This document shows, one piece after another, positions 1,920-36,662 of a DNA stretch of 64,000 nt. Positions within the stretch are counted from its first letter, which is position 1, and each line of letters begins with the position of its first letter. The notes under the pieces are model-generated. The model was not told the origin of the DNA, did not search any database, and saw nothing but the letters and a program-made list of their open reading frames with translations. Made by a program: the position numbers and the translations under genes. Source of the DNA: Bosea vaviloviae (GTDB taxonomy: Bacteria > Pseudomonadota > Alphaproteobacteria > Rhizobiales > Beijerinckiaceae); NCBI RefSeq assembly GCF_001741865.1, contig NZ_CP017147.1:957001-1021000 (forward strand). Direction: 5' to 3'.

Positions 1920-2004
1920 CGCGATGTCTCCTGTCTGGCTGCCTACAGGGCGGAAATGCAGCAGCGCCCGTAACGTTCCATCCGAAGTCGCCAGCGCGCC
2001 AAGG

Positions 2005-2020
2005 TTAAGCGGGTCTTAAC
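2005..2020. promoter_or_regulatory. CtrA-type binding box upstream of ftsK
   Basis: TTAA-GCGGGTC-TTAAC, an exact TTAA-N7-TTAAC full site for the cell-cycle regulator CtrA of alphaproteobacteria, 68 bases before the ftsK start. The only other exact copy I found is in the probable origin at 24902-24917. Control of ftsK by CtrA is an inference from motif and position. Confidence 0.65.
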
Positions 2021-2087: not shown

Positions 2088-4649
2088 ATGCGCACGATCC
2101 GACGTTCCTCCTCGCTGATGGACCGCCTGCCCGATCCGGTGCGGGAGTTCCTGTCGCGGCGCGCGGCGGAGTTGACCGGGCTCGGCCTGCTGGCCCTGAC
2201 ATCGGCGATCGCGATCGCGCTCGCGACCTGGTCCGTCGACGACCCCAGCATCAACAACGCCACCAGCGGCGCCGTCAGGAACTGGCTCGGCCGTCCCGGC
2301 GCGATGGTCGCCGATCTGCTGATGCAATTGATCGGGCTCGGCGTCGTCGCCCTGCTGTTCCCGCCGGTGATCTGGGCACTCCGGCTGATCCGCTTCCATC
2401 TGTTCGATCGCGGTGCGCTCAAGCTCGGCCTCTGGGTCGTCGGCATCGTCGCCACCGGCGCGGTCGCCAGCGCCCTGCCCGCGACGCCGCGCTGGCCGCT
2501 GCCGACCGGCATGGGCGGCGTCATCGGCGACGGCCTGCTGTTCGGCACCCGCAACCTCGTCGGCATCGCCGGCAATGCGCTCGGCGGCCTCGTCGGTTTC
2601 CTCTATGCCGGCATCTCGATCCTAGCGATCACGGCCGCGGCCGGCTTCGGTTTCGTCACCGACGAGGATCCGAGCGCCGAGAACGAGGATGAGGACGAAT
2701 CCTGGAGCGAGAGCGAGGATCGCCGCGACGACGAGCCCGGCATCGCGGTCATCCTGATCGGCTGGCTCGCCCATGGCGCGATGTCGCTCAGGGGCATGAT
2801 CCTGCGCCGTTTGCCGCAGCCGCCCGAGCCGCTGGTCAATGCAGGCCCGGCCGCCTCGGCCCCCGTGCCCGGCCGCGTCCGTCGCGAGCCACAATTCGGC
2901 GAGACAGCACCGCGCGCCGCGAGCCAGCCTTTCGCCCCCGAGCCCCTGCCTGTTTCGCGCCCGCGGCCCGCCGCGGTCGACCTGCCCGAGGACGACGACG
3001 AGCCGCAGGATCTGCGCGATCTCAACGCACCGCGCGTCACCGCCCCGGCGATCGCGCCCAAGCCGGGAAAGCGCATGCAGCGCGAGGCCCAGCCCTCGCT
3101 GCTCGACCGCGACCAGTTCGAATTGCCGCCGCTGACCTATCTGTCGGAACCCAAGAAGCTGCCCGCCAACGCGATCTCGACCGACGCGCTGGAGCAGAAT
3201 GCGACCTTGCTCGAAGGCGTGCTCGAGGATTTCGGCGTGCGCGGCGAGATCACCCAGGTTCGACCCGGCCCTGTGGTGACGCTTTACGAGCTTGAGCCTG
3301 CGCCAGGAACCAAATCCTCGCGGGTGATTTCGCTGGCCGACGACATCGCCCGCTCGATGAGCGCGATCGCGGCGCGCGTCGCCGTGATCCCGGGCAAGAA
3401 CGCCATCGGCATCGAACTGCCCAACGCCAAGCGCGAGACCGTCTTCCTGCGCGAACTTCTGGCCAGCCAGGATTTCGAGAGCTCCAAGCACAAGCTCGCC
3501 TTGGGGCTGGGCAAGACCATCGGCGGCGAGCCGGTGATCGTCGATCTCGCCCGGATGCCGCATCTGCTCGTCGCCGGCACCACCGGCTCGGGCAAGTCGG
3601 TGGCGATCAACACCATGATCCTGTCGCTGCTCTACCGGCTGAAGCCGGAGGAGTGCCGCCTGATCATGGTCGATCCCAAGATGCTCGAACTCTCCGTCTA
3701 TGACGGCATTCCCCATCTGCTCACCCCTGTCGTCACCGACCCGAAGAAGGCGGTCGTGGCGCTGAAATGGGCGGTGCGCGAGATGGAGGAGCGCTACAAG
3801 AAGATGTCGAAGGTCTCGGTGCGCAACATCGACGGCTTCAACGCCCGCGTCGGCGAGGCCAAGGCCGCCGGCGAGGTCATCACCCGCACCGTGCAGACCG
3901 GCTTCGACAAGCATTCCGGCGAGGCGATCTATGAGGAGGAGGTCATGGACCTCGAGCCTCTGCCCTATATCGTCGTCATCGTCGACGAGATGGCCGATCT
4001 GATGATGGTCGCCGGCAAGGAGATCGAGGGCACGATCCAGCGGCTGGCCCAGATGGCGCGCGCGGCCGGCATCCATGTCGTGCTGGCGACGCAGCGCCCC
4101 TCCGTCGACGTCATCACCGGCACGATCAAGGCGAACTTCCCGACCCGGATCTCCTTCCAGGTCACCTCCAAGATCGACTCGCGCACGATCCTGGGCGAGC
4201 AGGGCGCCGAGCAGCTGCTCGGCCAGGGCGACATGCTCTACATGGCCGGCGGCGGGCGCATCACCCGCGTCCACGGCCCCTTCGTCTCCGATGCCGAGGT
4301 CGAGAAGGTCGTCGCCCACTTGAAGACGCAAGGCCGGCCGCAATATCTCGAAGCCGTCACCTCCGAGGAGGAGGAGGGCGCAGCCGAGGGCGAGGATGGC
4401 GCGGTCTTCGACAAGAGCGCCATGGGCCAGGCCGAGAGCGACGACCCTTACGACCAGGCGGTGGCGGTGGTGCTGCGCGACAAGAAGGCCTCGACCTCCT
4501 ATATCCAGCGCCGCCTCCAGATCGGCTACAACCGCGCCGCCTCGATCATGGAGCGGATGGAGAACGAAGGCATCGTCGGCCCCGCCAACCATGCCGGCAA
4601 GCGCGAAATCCTGGTCGAAACCGGACGCGCCCGCGAAGACGAGGATTGA
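2088..4649 (+). CDS. ftsK: DNA translocase FtsK
   Basis: Septum-anchored DNA pump that clears the chromosome terminus at division and activates XerCD at dif; 853 aa. The N-terminal third has several membrane helices (about residues 25-190), followed by an acidic, proline-rich linker (about 200-340). The motor domain carries Walker A GTTGSGKS near residue 497 and Walker [14 protein letters not shown] near 630. The C-terminal winged-helix gamma domain ([22 protein letters not shown], about 800-825) reads KOPS-type sequences. No clear ribosome site precedes the chosen ATG; a second in-frame ATG 30 bases later is possible. A CtrA box lies upstream. Assignment is secure. Confidence 0.96.
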
Positions 4650-13928: not shown

Positions 13929-14813
13929 TCAGGCCTTCAATCGGCGGCAGAGCGCTTCAAGCTGCTCGAGCGTCTTGTAGCTGATCTTCATCTCGCCGCC
14001 GCCATTGGCCCGATGCTGGATCGAGACCGACAGCCCCAGCGCTTCCTCGAGAGCCTTCTCGACCGCGCGGGTATCGGGATCCTTGTCGATCTTGGGCTTG
14101 CCTGGAACGCTTTTGGTTTCGCCGCGCGATTCGTCTTGAACGATCCGTTCGATGTCACGGACGCTGAGCCCTTCGTCGATGATCTTGCGAGCCATCAGTT
14201 CCGGCTCCGAAACAGACAGCAAGGCGCGGGCATGGCCGGCCGAAACCGCGCCTTCGCTGACCATCTTCCGCACCGATTCCGGCAGTTTGGACAGCCGCAG
14301 GGTGTTGGCGACATGGCTGCGGCTCTTGCCGATGACCCGCGCAAGGTCGTTTTGCGTATAGCTGAACTCCGCGATCAACCGCTCATAACCGGCGGCCTCC
14401 TCAATCGCGTTCAGATCGGTGCGCTGGACGTTCTCGACAATGGCGATTTCGAGCGCTTCGCGATCATCCGCCTCGACCAGGATGACCGGCACATCGTGCA
14501 AGCCTGCGCGCTGGGCAGCGCGCCAGCGCCGTTCACCCGCAATGATCTCATAGGCATCGAGCATGCCTGGAATCGAGCGCACGATGATCGGCTGCAGGAT
14601 GCCGCGCTCGCGGACCGAGGCCGTGAGTTCTTCGAGATCGTCCTCGCCGAAGCTGCGCCGCGGATTGCGCGCGCTCGGACGCAGGAACTCGACAGGCACG
14701 CGCCTCTGGCCGCGCGCCCGGTCGATCGCACCGATCTCCTCGCCGACATCGCCGATCAACGCCGCCAGGCCTCGGCCGAGCCGTGAGCGCCCCTGTTCTT
14801 CGGCCATTGCCAT
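13929..14813 (-). CDS. parB: Chromosome-partitioning protein ParB (CTP-dependent clamp)
   Basis: Binds parS and spreads as a CTP-gated sliding clamp to form the segregation complex; 294 aa. The N-terminal CTPase domain has the motifs FGEDDLEELTASVRERGILQPIIVR, GERRWRAAQRAG and ENVQRTDLNAIEEAAGY. The central helix-turn-helix YTQNDLARVIGKSRSHVANTLRL contacts parS. The C-terminal dimer domain is at about 245-294. A basic N-terminus with GRGLAALIGD is the usual ParA-contact segment. It is 29 bases downstream of parA on the same strand. Several parS sites occur in this window. Confidence 0.97.
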   Translation of the reverse strand: MAMAEEQGRSRLGRGLAALIGDVGEEIGAIDRARGQRRVPVEFLRPSARNPRRSFGEDDLEELTASVRERGILQPIIVRSIPGMLDAYEIIAGERRWRAAQRAGLHDVPVILVEADDREALEIAIVENVQRTDLNAIEEAAGYERLIAEFSYTQNDLARVIGKSRSHVANTLRLSKLPESVRKMVSEGAVSAGHARALLSVSEPELMARKIIDEGLSVRDIERIVQDESRGETKSVPGKPKIDKDPDTRAVEKALEEALGLSVSIQHRANGGGEMKISYKTLEQLEALCRRLKA

Positions 14814-14842: not shown

Positions 14843-15669
<827 letters not shown>

Positions 15670-15673
<4 letters not shown>

Positions 15674-16317
15674 GAATCGGCCCGCTTCTCGACCGCACGA
15701 ACCATCAGGATGCGCGCGGCGCTGTCTGTCACGGAAGAAACCGTTGAGGCCTGAATCTTCCAATATTTAGACGCGTCGGTCAATTCAGCATCTAGATGTT
15801 GTCCCTTGGGAAAAAGCCCCAACGCCCCTGTTCTCAACAGGTCTTTGCACCAGTCCAGCAGCAATGGCAGCGGCGCCAGGGCTCGCGCGCAAACCACGTC
15901 GATCTTGCCCACAAAATCGCCAACGGCATCCTCGATCCGCGCATTGTGAACCCTGACCGGTGCCCCCGTCAAACGCGCGGCATGTCGCAAAAAAGCGCAT
16001 TTTCGGCTGTTGCTCTCGACAAGATGGATTTCGCCGGCCCCCCGCTCCGCCAGGCAAATGCCGATCACCAACCCGGGAAAGCCGCCGCCGGAGCCGAGAT
16101 CAAGCCAGCGCTGCGAGTCTCGCGCCAGATCGAAGAGTTGCAGTGAATCGGCAATATGGCGTGTCCAGACATCTTTCAACGTGCCCGAGGACACCAGATT
16201 CTTTGCCACCTGCCAGCGCTCGAGCTCAGCGACGAGGATCGCCAGACGCTCCTCTGTTTCACGTGAAACAGGCGTCAAGCTCAAAGCATGCGCCCTGTCG
16301 CTTTTATCAACAGTCAC
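15670..16317 (-). CDS. rsmG: 16S rRNA (guanine-527-N7)-methyltransferase
   Basis: SAM-dependent enzyme that makes m7G527 in 16S rRNA, also known as GidB; 215 aa. The SAM pocket is WLDLGSGGGFPGLVIGI, with EIHLVESNSRKCAFLRHAAR next and DVVCARALAPLPLLL for substrate contacts. A perfect parS (16255-16270) lies within the codons for the N-terminal residues VSRETE, so the coding sequence and the centromere overlap. It follows mnmG by three bases and overlaps parA by four. Confidence 0.96.
16255..16270. promoter_or_regulatory. parS site, perfect 16/16
   Basis: TGTTTCACGTGAAACA, the exact parS consensus and a full palindrome, inside the 5' part of rsmG. It is about 1.4 kb from parB and about 8.7 kb from the probable origin, and is the strongest candidate centromere site in the window. 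Confidence 0.93.
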
Positions 16318-18270: not shown

Positions 18271-18286
18271 CGTTTCACGTGAAACG
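18271..18286. promoter_or_regulatory. parS site, symmetric 14/16
   Basis: CGTTTCACGTGAAACG is a perfect 16-bp palindrome that differs from the consensus only at the two outer bases. It lies in the mnmE-mnmG gap (18214-18317), about 6.5 kb from the probable origin. Confidence 0.85.
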
Positions 18287-23260: not shown

Positions 23261-23683
23261 TCAGAACGGCTTGACGATGACGAGGATCACGATCAGCGCC
23301 ATCAACACGGCCGGAACCTCGTTGATGACGCGATAGAACCGCGCGCTCTTGAGGTTGCGATCCTCGGCGAAGGCGCGGACCCGTCCTGCCAGATAGCCAT
23401 GGATGGCGGACAGGATGAAGACCAGCAGGATCTTGCCGTGCAGCCAGCCGCCCTTGAAGCCAAAGGCCGACCAGGCGAGGTAGAGGCCCAGGATCCAGGT
23501 CACGATCATCGAGGGCGTCATGATGCCCTTGAGCAGCCGCCGCTCCATGATCTTGAAGGTCTCGGACTGGATCGACCCGGTCTGCGCTTCCGCATGATAG
23601 ACCATCAACCGCGGCAAATAGAGCATGCTCGCCATCCAGGCGATCACCGCCATGACGTGGAAGGCCTTGATCCATTCATACAT
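23261..23683 (-). CDS. hemJ: Protoporphyrinogen oxidase HemJ
   Basis: A small membrane heme enzyme that oxidises protoporphyrinogen IX to protoporphyrin IX; 140 aa with four membrane helices. The N-terminal WIKAFHVMAVIAWMASMLYLPRLMVYH supplies the conserved heme-ligand His and Arg region. GWLHGKILLVFILSAIHGYLAGRVRAFAED is the second family block. It sits 15 bases downstream of hemE, so the two heme genes are probably co-transcribed. Confidence 0.92.
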   Translation of the reverse strand: MYEWIKAFHVMAVIAWMASMLYLPRLMVYHAEAQTGSIQSETFKIMERRLLKGIMTPSMIVTWILGLYLAWSAFGFKGGWLHGKILLVFILSAIHGYLAGRVRAFAEDRNLKSARFYRVINEVPAVLMALIVILVIVKPF

Positions 23684-23698
23684 CGCGATGGTCCTCCC

Positions 23699-24733
23699 TC
23701 AGGCCCTGACGGCGGCAATCAGCCGCTCGACATGCGCGATCGGGGTGTCGGGCAAGATGCCGTGACCCAGATTGAAAACGAAGGGCTTAGGCCCGAAAGC
23801 CGATCTGATCGCGGCAACCTCGCGCTCCAGCTCCGGTCCCCCGGCGCGCAGGATCAACGGATCGAGATGGCCCTGGACCGGCACCAGCGATTGGATCGCG
23901 TCGCGCGCGAAACCGCGGTCGATATCGGTTTCGAGTCCAGCGGCATCGACGCCTGTCGCCGTGACATAACCCGGGATGAGCGCACCGGCGCCACGAGGGA
24001 ACCCGATGATGCGGGTCCGGGGATGACGCGCCCGCACGCCCTCGACGATCCGCTTCGTCGGCGCAATGCACCAGCGTTCGAACTCGGCCGGCCCCAGAGA
24101 TCCCGCCCAGCTGTCGAAGATCTGGACGGCATCGACGCCGGCTTTGATCTGCGCGTTGAGATAATCGATCGACGAAACGACGATCCGGTCGATCAGGCGC
24201 TGGAAGAGATCCTGGTCGCGCGTGAACAGCTCTTTCGCCGGCCCTTGATCGGGAGTGCCTCGACCGGCCACCATATAGGTCGCCACGGTCCAGGGCGCGC
24301 CACAGAAGCCGATGAGGGCGGTCTCCCTGGGCAGGGCCCCTCTCACCCGGCGTACGGTCTCGATGATCGGCGCAAGCTTGTCCTGGTCGGCTTGCCCATC
24401 GATCGCGCGCAAGCGCTCCTCATCGGCTACGGGCTCGAGGCGGGGACCTTCGCCTTCGGCGAACCAGAGGGCCTGCCCGAGCGCTTGCGGAATAACGAGG
24501 ATGTCCGAGAACAGGATCGCGGCATCGAAACCGAAGCGCCGGATCGGCTGCAAGGTGACCTCGGCAGCCATTTCGGGATTATAGCAAAGCGCGAGGAAGC
24601 TTCCAGCCTTGGCGCGAAGCTCACGATACTCCGGCAGATATCGGCCAGCCTGACGCATCAGCCAGAGCGGGGGAGTGACCAGTGTCTCTCCATCGAGTGC
24701 CCGCAGGAAAACCGGTTTGCTATGCGTCGACAT
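23699..24733 (-). CDS. hemE: Uroporphyrinogen decarboxylase
   Basis: Decarboxylates the four acetate side chains of uroporphyrinogen III to coproporphyrinogen III; 344 aa. The substrate motif [20 protein letters not shown] is intact, along with [38 protein letters not shown] and the C-terminal [20 protein letters not shown]. The ATG at 24733 ([13 protein letters not shown]) is chosen over a longer frame that would run into the origin, because family members begin at this block. hemE flanking the chromosome origin is a well-known alphaproteobacterial arrangement. Confidence 0.96.
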
Positions 24734-24772
24734 GTTCGATCCAGACCATCGCTCTCGATCTCTTCTAAATAT

Positions 24773-24790
24773 GATTCTTGAGAGAGAATC
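24773..24790. promoter_or_regulatory. GANTC-capped inverted repeat beside hemE
   Basis: GATTCTTGAGAGAGAATC is an inverted repeat whose two ends are GANTC methylation sites. It lies 40 bases upstream of the hemE start, in the A+T-rich part of the origin, so it could touch both hemE expression and unwinding. Confidence 0.5.
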
Positions 24791-24834
24791 TTCTTTTTTG
24801 ACTCTTGGGGGCAGGCACAGGCTTAGCCGCAAAG

Positions 24835-24854
24835 CCATCCACAGCCGGTCCACA
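24835..24854. promoter_or_regulatory. Two weak DnaA-box-like sequences
   Basis: CCATCCACA (24835-24843, 7/9 to TTATCCACA) and CGGTCCACA (24846-24854, 6/9) lie 11 bases apart in the same orientation. This is one helical turn, which is typical of cooperative DnaA arrays. Weak individually. Confidence 0.45.
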
Positions 24855-24901
24855 GCTCCTGGGCCCTCAAGGCCGGAATGCGGCAATGGCGATCGAGGTC
24901 G

Positions 24902-24917
24902 TTAAGGCTTTCTTAAC
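24902..24917. promoter_or_regulatory. CtrA-type binding box in the origin
   Basis: TTAA-GGCTTTC-TTAAC, an exact TTAA-N7-TTAAC site. In Caulobacter, CtrA bound in the origin blocks replication in swarmer cells; a comparable brake is inferred here. Confidence 0.72.
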
Positions 24918-24953
24918 CAATTGGAATCGGGGTCGGGCTTCCGGCCTCCAAAA

Positions 24954-24969
24954 TGATTCACGTGAAACA
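24954..24969. promoter_or_regulatory. parS site in the origin (15/16)
   Basis: TGATTCACGTGAAACA matches parS at 15 of 16 positions. The one change creates a GANTC (GATTC) methylation site within the motif. Confidence 0.85.
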
Positions 24970-25016
24970 TCGCCGAACCTGACCACAGCCCTTTGCCTGT
25001 TGATCGAAATGGGGGG

Positions 25017-25064
25017 TTATACACGCCGCTTTCCGGAGGCCTCTGGGACGCTCGGTTGTCCACA
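25017..25064. promoter_or_regulatory. DnaA-box-like sequences, right cluster
   Basis: TTATACACG at 25017-25025 (7/9) and TTGTCCACA at 25056-25064 (8/9 to TTATCCACA, the best match in the region). Confidence 0.55.
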
Positions 25065-25141
25065 CTCATCCCCGGCGTCGTGAATCCGTCTGCGCCGCCG
25101 ACGGCCTCCCGGTCCAATTTGCTTTGTCCGCTCAGCGCGCC

Positions 25142-25192
25142 AGAGCAGGATGCGAAAAAGTGGGAACCGGTTTTTCGCATAGATCCTGCTCT
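25142..25192. repeat. Dispersed palindrome, AGAGCAGGAT family
   Basis: Outer arms AGAGCAGGAT / ATCCTGCTCT and inner arms GCGAAAAA / TTTTTCGC enclose GTGGGAACCGG. It is followed by ACTCTTTGATGAGAGACG, the same tail as the copy at 36561-36605. Typical of intergenic repeats in Rhizobiales. Confidence 0.8.
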
Positions 25193-25217
25193 AACTCTTT
25201 GATGAGAGACGGATTCA

Positions 25218-25256
25218 GATCTCAGATGGGATCACTTTGTGATTCCATCTGAGATC
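25218..25256. repeat. 39-bp near-perfect inverted repeat before the regulator gene
   Basis: Arms GATCTCAGATGGGATCAC and GTGATTCCATCTGAGATC pair with one mismatch around TTT. It ends 44 bases before the chosen GTG. Its place directly after the AGAGCAGGAT palindrome suggests a composite repeat element, but its nearness to the start leaves a leader hairpin possible. Confidence 0.75.
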
Positions 25257-25300
25257 ATCCGGCTCTAGAGGTGGCTCTGTTCGTTAATCCGGGAGCCAAC

Positions 25301-26131
25301 GTGGCCCGCAATTATTTTCACCTCCATCTCGTCTCGGACGCGACCGGCGAAACGCTGATCGCGGTCAGCCGCGCAGCAGCCGCACAATACGAGACCGTCT
25401 CGGCGATCGAGCACGTCTATCCGCTCGTCCGCTCCGAGGCGCAGCTCGCCCGCGTGCTGGCAGAGATCGAGGCCTCGCCCGGCGTCGTGCTCTACACCCT
25501 GGTCGAACCGGAATGGTCGGCGCGGCTCGAGGCGTTTTGTCGCGATCTCGGCTGCCCCTGCCTATCGGTGCTCAATCCGGTACTCTCGCTGTTCCAGTCC
25601 TATCTCGGCCAGGCCTCGGCGCCGAAGCCTGGTGCCCAGCACGTCCTCAACGCGGAATATTTCCGCCGCATCGACGCGATGAACTACACGCTGCTGCATG
25701 ATGACGGGCAGCTCGGTGGCGATCTCGAAAGCGCCGATATCATCCTGGTTGGTATCAGCCGGACCTCGAAGACGCCGACCTCGATCTATCTCGCCAATCG
25801 CGGCATCAAGACAGCCAATATCCCGCTCGTGCCGAATGTGCCGTTGCCGCCAGAGCTCGAAGCCCTGAAGAAGCCGCTGGTCGTCGGTCTCGTCGCCAGC
25901 GCCGACCGCATCGTCCAGATCAGGCAGAACCGCCTGCTCTCGCTCAAGGCCGATGACGAGACGCCCTATGTCGATCCCGCCATGGTCGCCGACGAGGTCG
26001 CGCAGTCGCGCCGGCTTTGCGCCCGTAAGGGCTGGCCGGTGATCGACGTCACCCGCCGCTCGATCGAGGAGACGGCAGCCGCTATCCTCGATCTCCTGCG
26101 CGACCACCGCATGAAGTTCATCGCGACATGA
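25301..26131 (+). CDS. PPDK / PEP-synthase regulatory kinase-pyrophosphorylase (DUF299)
   Basis: Bifunctional serine/threonine kinase and phosphate-dependent phosphorylase that switches pyruvate-phosphate dikinase or PEP synthase off and on; 276 aa. Family blocks are [14 protein letters not shown] at the N-terminus, the nucleotide-binding loop [18 protein letters not shown] (about 153-170) and [20 protein letters not shown] choose the GTG at 25301 because GGGAG precedes it by five bases and homologues begin here; a GTG 30 bases earlier is possible. Which of the two target enzymes it controls cannot be told. It starts a rightward run with maf, aroE, coaE and dnaQ. Confidence 0.92.
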
Positions 26132-26754
26132 ATGGCGCAGCTGCGCTCTGGCTCGGCTCGGTCCCGCTCGTGCTGGCCTCGGGCAGCACGACGCGGCGCG
26201 ACATGCTGCTGGCGGCAGGAATTCTGGTCGAGGTGATCAAGCCCGAGATCGATGAACGCGCCGTCGAAGCGGCGCTGCTGCAACGCGGTCTGCCGGGCGA
26301 GGATGCAGCTCTCGAGCTTGCGCGCGCCAAGGCCTTGGTGGTCTCAAGGGCTCATGCCCAGCGCATCGTGCTCGGCGCCGATCAGACTTTGACCTGTGAC
26401 GGCGTCAGTCATCACAAGCCCGCTGACGCCGCCGGCGCTCGCGCCCAGATCGCTGCGCTGTCGGGTCGAACGCACCAGCTGCGCTCGGCCTTCGTCCTGG
26501 CGCAGGCCGGCGAGGTCATCGCGCAGGGCGCCCAGACGGCCGGCCTGACCATGCGTGCTTTGAGCCCGGATTTCATCGCGGCCTATGTCGATGCGATGGG
26601 CCCGTCCGCTTTCGTCAGCATCGGCGGCTACCAGATCGAAGGGCTCGGCGCCCAGCTCTTCGACACAGTCGAAGGCGACCATTTCACCATTCTCGGCCTG
26701 CCGCTCCTTGCCGTCCTCGCCGCCTTGCGCGGTCACGGCCTGCTCGCGCACTGA
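26128..26754 (+). CDS. maf: Maf-family nucleotide pyrophosphatase
   Basis: House-cleaning nucleoside-triphosphate pyrophosphatase acting on modified or canonical NTPs; 208 aa. The N-terminal phosphate-binding block is [19 protein letters not shown], the active-site region is [13 protein letters not shown], and the conserved tail is [29 protein letters not shown]. The start overlaps the upstream stop by four bases (ATGA), so translation is coupled. The subclass (dTTP/UTP or m7GTP) is not decided; GGYQIEG suggests a canonical active site. Confidence 0.93.
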
Positions 26755-36646: not shown

Positions 36647-36662
36647 CGTTTCACGTGAATCG
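36647..36662. promoter_or_regulatory. Weak parS-like site at the pnp terminator (13/16)
   Basis: CGTTTCACGTGAATCG has a CACGTG centre with three mismatches to parS. It sits between the pnp stop and the pnp terminator, the same relation as the site at 1509-1524 has to amtB. Confidence 0.4.

Follow-up and report, generated by a model that had tools for sequence, protein, structure and literature searches.

A putative Cori-type chromosomal origin of Bosea carries a parS-like site that overlaps a GANTC motif

Is the short gap between hemE and a PPSR gene the replication origin of the Bosea chromosome, and what does the parS-like sequence inside it do? We analyzed a window of 64,000 bases, positions 957001–1021000 of a 6,373,793-base chromosome (a second contig has 339,755 bases), in which the gap lies at 981.7–982.3 kb of the chromosome. 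The PPSR family (PF03618) is taken here to be COG1806. Among the best 80 of 551 matches, the PPSR protein matched its counterpart in Bosea sp. OK403 at 100% identity and the one in Bosea psychrotolerans at 98%. The gap and its flanks are as follows.

24734..25300, no strand, hemE–PPSR gap, putative chromosomal origin, 567 bases
23699..24733, minus strand, hemE, left flank of the origin (TIGR01464 above cut-off; PF01208)
25301..26131, plus strand, PPSR (DUF299-type kinase/pyrophosphorylase, COG1806), right flank (PF03618; NF003742 above cut-off)

The Caulobacter origin, Cori, is flanked by hemE and COG1806 (PMC1914354), and profile matches revealed the same pair around the Bosea gap, in agreement with the first-pass annotation, which had compared the position beside hemE with that in Caulobacter. 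As at a Cori-type origin, the gap is A+T-rich (55% GC, against about 65% in the window), and the A+T-rich stretch that had been noticed near hemE was found at 24757–24806, which includes the GANTC sites at 24773, 24786 and 24800. An Rfam scan of 23500–26500 gave no match at the gathering threshold. The elements within the gap are listed below.

24757..24806, no strand, most A+T-rich 50-mer of the gap (70% A+T), candidate unwinding element and/or hemE promoter region
24835..24856, plus strand, two TCCACA cores (24838 and 24849), candidate weak DnaA boxes, invariant at 24838–24843 and 24849–24855
24901..24917, no strand, palindromic CtrA box GTTAAGGCTTTCTTAAC, a two-way match and perfect palindrome
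24924..24928, no strand, GANTC next to the CtrA box, present in 16 of 25 Bosea gaps (from the best 80 of 551)
24954..24969, plus strand, hybrid parS/GANTC site TGATTCACGTGAAACA, a 15/16 parS match, in 25 of 25 Bosea gaps (from the best 80 of 551)
25017..25025, plus strand, DnaA-box-like TTATACACG, 2 mismatches
25056..25064, plus strand, DnaA box TTGTCCACA, the sole one in the gap within 1 mismatch
25138..25270, no strand, dispersed double-hairpin repeat of about 130 bp inserted in the gap, carrying the GANTC sites at 25212 and 25241

Among 125 sequences, 99 had a hemE–PPSR gap, and 86 of these gaps were distinct (13 duplicates); 16 of the other 26 had neither gene and 10 had no hemE. Conservation was scored on the window and 24 named loci, which were selected from the best 80 of 551 by a PPSR identity of 89% or more and not by motifs. 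The median pairwise identity of these 25 gaps was 55%, and 68 of 387 columns (24734–25120) were invariant. The longest invariant runs fell on the parS-like site, the TCCACA cores and parts of the CtrA half-sites; the longest of all, 18 columns at 24952–24969, comprised the parS-like site and two A's upstream, compared to a longest run of 8 in 10000 column shuffles. A set of 40 rows picked by the presence of the 16-mer gave the same longest run, and because this set is circular for the parS block, the count is based on the 25 PPSR-chosen rows instead.

The perfect CtrA box reported in the first-pass annotation (TTAAGGCTTTCTTAAC, 24902–24917) is in fact a two-way palindrome starting one base earlier. 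CtrA-box strand matches in the window numbered four, at two places, with 0.01 expected; the 6.7-Mb genome has three such two-way palindromes, of which one is the box in the gap and another lies in the window at a distance of 22.9 kb. TTAA-N7-TTAA was present in 25 of the 25 Bosea gaps and the full 17-mer palindrome in 19 (from the best 80 of 551). The gap would thereby possess the CtrA site of a Cori-type origin. The second palindrome of the window (2004–2020) is located 67 bases upstream of a gene at 2088–4649, presumably ftsK-like as named from its translation, and near a parS-like sequence, CGTCTCACGTGAAACA (1509–1524, 2 mismatches).

One DnaA box matching 8 of 9 bases and several weaker ones had been claimed. 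The former is present at 25056–25064, and the weaker ones, TTAGCCGCA (24823), CCATCCACA (24835) and TTATACACG, all have 2 mismatches. TT[A/G]TCCACA occurred in 21 of the 25 Bosea gaps (from the best 80 of 551). The single box at 1 mismatch and the conserved TCCACA cores are thus candidate DnaA sites of a Cori-type origin, fewer than at Cori. A scan of the gap with the strict IHF consensus gave no site, and one at 1 mismatch inside the dispersed repeat; an IHF-like site at 1 mismatch or better was present in 9 of the 25 Bosea gaps (from the best 80 of 551).

GANTC sites start at 24773, 24786, 24800, 24924, 24955, 25082, 25212 and 25241, the eight given in the first-pass annotation. Its estimate of about two by chance was too high, with about 0.8 expected per 567 bp. 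GANTC is avoided, the window having 131 sites compared to 365 after shuffling, and the 961 kb sampled having 1386. A group of eight within 567 bases is therefore rarer than had been stated. Eight were reached in 2 of 18714 sliding 567-bp windows across the 961 kb, and overlapping windows on the gap would account for these. The cluster holds as a count, but 25212 and 25241 come from the repeat, which has been inserted in this lineage. The genome G001 matches the whole query at the same place and has a copy of the repeat in its origin gap, whereas the near relatives G008 and G032 match only up to its start, and the G008 gap has 442 bases. In the 961 kb sampled, the repeat had 19 matches of at least 110 bp, its own copy included, and as a single strand it forms strong hairpins (z −12). 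Across the 25 Bosea gaps (from the best 80 of 551), the sites were kept in 13 (24773), 22 (24786), 20 (24800), 16 (24924), 25 (24955), 4 (25082), 2 (25212) and 2 (25241), so four of them (24786, 24800, 24924 and 24955) recur in 16–25 gaps. A CcrM-type methylase, GcrA, DnaA and ParB are all encoded in the genome. The CcrM candidate matched N6_N4_Mtase and RAMA, and matched NF050803 with an E value of 7.6e-184 at 610 bits, below the 830 cut-off; by sequence, GANTC sites in the gap thus go with a CcrM gene in the genome.

GC skew was sampled in 47 pieces of the chromosome (43 stretches and four window quarters, with 6.077–6.374 Mb outside the sample); stretches of the second replicon (L052–L057) were left out. 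All 22 pieces on the side that runs from 4.52 Mb across position 0 to 0.989 Mb had negative skew. Of the 25 pieces between 0.989 and 4.38 Mb, on the right arm, 20 were positive and five negative. The sampled skew of the 6.37-Mb chromosome thus turns over near the gap and again near 4.3 Mb. The octamer GGGNAGGG flipped together with the skew (43 stretches): forward and reverse copies numbered 14 and 55 on the side running from 4.36 Mb across position 0 to 0.94 Mb, and 60 and 15 between 1.04 and 4.22 Mb. On the local scale, cumulative skew over 937–1041 kb had its minimum at 994,484, about 12 kb right of the gap, so the skew does not separate the gap from its neighbours. The GC-skew check proposed with the first-pass annotation therefore favored the gap at the coarse turnover, but not at the local minimum. 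The skew sampled in a second Bosea (G012, 24 stretches) switched sign repeatedly, and the hemE gap of that genome did not stand out. One stretch (L015, chromosome 880001–900000), about 80 kb left of the putative origin, has 42% GC against about 65% for the chromosome and is perhaps an island.

Skew was weak and mixed near 1.04–1.21 Mb, and one of three extra stretches (1.11, 1.205 and 1.255 Mb) was negative. Together with the offset minimum, this would suit a gap that is mainly a divergent promoter of hemE and PPSR under CtrA, GcrA and CcrM, with replication starting elsewhere, for example near dnaA; the GANTC sites and the A+T-rich block adjoin the start of hemE. We consider this very improbable. 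dnaA lies at 1.188 Mb, 206 kb from the gap, and the 3.5 kb of its locus contain neither a DnaA box within 1 mismatch nor a TTAA-N7-TTAA motif. The gap is flanked by the same two genes as Cori, promoter and origin roles can coexist, and the parS-like sites of the genome end at the gap. The par genes and the nearest of these sites are listed below.

13929..14813, minus strand, parB (PF17762, PF02195, PF23552; best solved relative 6t1f, ParB)
14843..15673, minus strand, parA (PF13614; open frame to 15763, first ATG chosen as start)
16255..16270, no strand, perfect parS at the gidB start, 8.7 kb to the left of the site in the gap
18271..18286, no strand, parS-like CGTTTCACGTGAAACG in the gidA/mnmE gap, 2 mismatches, 6.7 kb left of the origin site

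The 15/16 parS noted earlier at 24954–24969 was found again, a putative site that fits the 16-bp parS palindrome. Across 6.7 Mb, five parS-like sites with at most 2 mismatches were present (903,074, 958,509, 973,255, 975,271 and 981,954), all within 79 kb (903–982 kb), the last being the one in the gap. parAB lies 9–11 kb left of the gap site, in the origin-proximal clustering usual for parS. A sequence 11.7 kb right of the origin site, CGTTTCACGTGAATCG (36647–36662), has 3 mismatches to parS, again with the change that makes GANTC. The skew turnover, the grouping of the five parS-like sites, the hemE/COG1806 flanks and the conserved CtrA, TCCACA and parS blocks together support the origin proposed in the first-pass annotation. 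Our direct observations are the sequence, conservation and position of the gap, the sampled skew and the presence of the named genes. We infer, with a probability of about 0.88, that the gap is a DnaA-dependent chromosomal origin of Bosea and the positional homologue of Caulobacter Cori.

ParB binding at the origin parS is a prediction from sequence, and 40 of 46 distinct non-Bosea gaps had no site within 3 mismatches of parS. Both would be expected if the sequence were a relic or the site of another protein, which we regard as quite improbable. The invariant run is the 16-bp parS with its two A's, and conservation drops on both sides. Furthermore, in 37 of 38 genomes (16 families) picked for carrying the 16-mer, its position was inside the parA-to-dnaQ block or no more than about 3 kb from it; the exception was G358.

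Read as a parS, the gap site differs from the consensus by T3 to A, and this change makes GATTC, a CcrM (GANTC) site. TGATTCACGTGAAACA occurred in 16 of 17 whole Bosea genomes: 13 of 14 further genomes had one perfect parS and one TGATTCACGTGAAACA, and G000, G035 and G058 complete the total. The locus was opened in 7 of these 13 genomes (G010, G012, G016, G032, G042, G048 and G060), and in all 7 the hybrid lay in the origin gap. The exception, G040, is a distant member (hemE 55%, PPSR 77% identity); the 10 kb round its hemE–PPSR gap (G040:C1:472000-482000, L308) held no parS within 3 mismatches and no TTAA-N7-TTAA. Five GANTC sites and a single DnaA-type box were present in that gap.

Across the order Hyphomicrobiales, 161 of 397 genomes, belonging to 60 of 141 genera, carried the hybrid 16-mer (reversed control, 0 matches). 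C or G at the same base occurred in 20 of the 397 (11 of 141 genera; 19 C and 1 G; reversed control, 1 match). In a phylum sample (n=299), 15 of 38 Hyphomicrobiales had the hybrid, compared to none of 48 other alphaproteobacteria and 1 of the remaining 213, whereas some parS within 1 mismatch was present in 42 and 154 members of the latter two groups, respectively. At 56 non-Bosea loci of up to 20.8 kb, chosen by PPSR, the hybrid made up 11 of 14 single-mismatch parS with an inner-base change, and 11 further single-mismatch sites had the change at the outermost base. In the 38 genomes picked for carrying the 16-mer, its position varied among the gidA/mnmE gap, the start of gidB, rho-mnmE, maf/aroE and coaE/dnaQ. 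In Pseudochelatococcus contaminans (L158) it lay reversed in the origin gap, where two relatives had a two-mismatch form, and three MAGs (L171–L173) had a perfect parS inside the origin gap. Tandem hybrids 23–27 bp apart were observed in the rho–mnmE interval, both in a different genus of the Bosea family and in a different family (L224:9654-9692 and L243:9963-10030). A rule that the hybrid is the parS nearest the origin, measured from the PPSR start, held in 23 of 23 Bosea loci and 8 of 8 other loci with both kinds and was dropped, being false in several further loci (L216, L218, L219, L220, L239, L241, L242 and others).

Full-text literature, mostly outside subscription, gave no mention of the 16-mer TGATTCACGTGAAACA. 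Work on parS with GANTC, CcrM or methylation, likewise mostly from non-subscription papers and present as excerpts, had no overlap of GANTC within parS, and the excerpt of PMC7022226 contained nothing on methylation.

ParB of the order may accept A at base 3, selection for a CcrM site may retain A, or both may hold. The first of these would make the GANTC overlap incidental, A being tolerated or mildly preferred by ParB. Near-limitation of the hybrid to Hyphomicrobiales, where parS within 1 mismatch is common outside the order, points in this direction. CcrM is conserved in most Alphaproteobacteria (PMC3973325, PMC11514494), so CcrM alone does not predict a limit to one order, which argues against methylation as the only cause. 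CcrM is also said to be dispensable for replication initiation in Caulobacter (PMC6090056). In Caulobacter ParB, K or R at residue 184 is permissive (PMC7383237). The equivalent residue, mapped from a ParB alignment to K176 of Bosea, was K or R in 40 of 55 Hyphomicrobiales but in none of 8 other alphaproteobacteria, numbers that ignore kinship. The second half, GTGAAA, is kept in Caulobacter parS (PMC5815017) and is intact in the hybrid too.

Tolerance alone would predict C, a transition, about as often as A, whereas A was found in 161 and C or G in 20 genomes; this difference, uncorrected for kinship, argues against pure tolerance. Tolerance also leaves the absence of T at the Bosea origin (25 of 25 gaps, from the best 80 of 551) without explanation. 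The contact residues named for Caulobacter ParB (PMC7383237) have the same identities in Bosea (Q, G, K, S, R, N, G and R at the equivalents of 162, 170–173, 178, 201 and 204, mapped from the same alignment). Contacts were nearly identical with and without the hybrid, with one exception at Q154 among the 22 genomes without and one at G162 among the 33 loci with it; a search for ParB residues that separate hybrid from non-hybrid genomes gave none that was clear at known contacts. On balance, we give tolerance as the whole account about an even chance, and a role of methylation in keeping A a clearly smaller one.

Tentative, and on our estimate unlikely, is a reading in which the parS copy at the origin acts as a centromere whose methylation state is read. 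Methylation of GATTC by CcrM would alter ParB nucleation and link the start of segregation to fork passage; old, fully methylated and new, hemimethylated sisters would load ParB differently; and this one-base solution would have been kept or re-made round origins in much of Hyphomicrobiales. At the GANTC sites of the Caulobacter parS locus, used as a control, methylation was the same on altered CcrM activity, and local hypomethylation was not considered major in cell-cycle control (PMC5172544).

Returning to the gap as a Cori-type origin, binding and timing of each step are modeled by analogy with Cori, where DnaA fires under CtrA (PMC1914354). DnaA would bind TTGTCCACA and the weaker TCCACA-type boxes and open the A+T-rich stretch next to hemE. 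In non-replicating cells, this opening would be blocked by phosphorylated CtrA, bound to the palindromic box that lies between them. ParB may nucleate both on the embedded parS and on the left-hand sites 6.7 and 8.7 kb away, which would make the origin itself part of the centromere. After firing, the CcrM sites, including the one inside parS, would stay hemimethylated until late in the cycle, when CcrM acts, and replicated origins would thus be marked.

Methylation also marks the origin in Escherichia coli, through Dam and SeqA at oriC. Methylation sites cluster at origins there and in repABC replicons (CcrM) as in the Bosea gap. The gap shares with Cori the flanking genes, a CtrA box, a DnaA-type box, an A+T-rich stretch and several GANTC motifs, which also occur in close relatives of Caulobacter (PMC3973325). 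However, Cori has five CtrA sites and five DnaA boxes (PMC1914354), compared to one palindromic CtrA box and one DnaA box within 1 mismatch in the Bosea gap. Like other ParABS centromeres, that of Bosea consists of 16-bp sites near parAB-gidBA, all near the origin, with a perfect copy in gidB; its origin copy differs by T3 to A, and hence by GANTC. Caulobacter parS sites cluster about 8 kb from the origin (PMC5815017), whereas Bosea has one inside the origin. repABC loci are GANTC-rich, and one motif near predicted parS sites has been suggested to affect partitioning (PMC11514494, PMC9040568); in Bosea a GANTC motif is inside a parS sequence of the main chromosome. The gap departs from the Caulobacter layout by a centromere-like site that overlaps a methylation site, identical in all Bosea gaps compared (from the best 80 of 551).

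In many bacteria the link between the firing of the origin and the onset of segregation is an open question. If the conserved 16-mer is read as both a ParB and a CcrM site within the origin, it would offer a one-base test of segregation timing, and the T, A and C versions of parS base 3 all occur among natural genomes.
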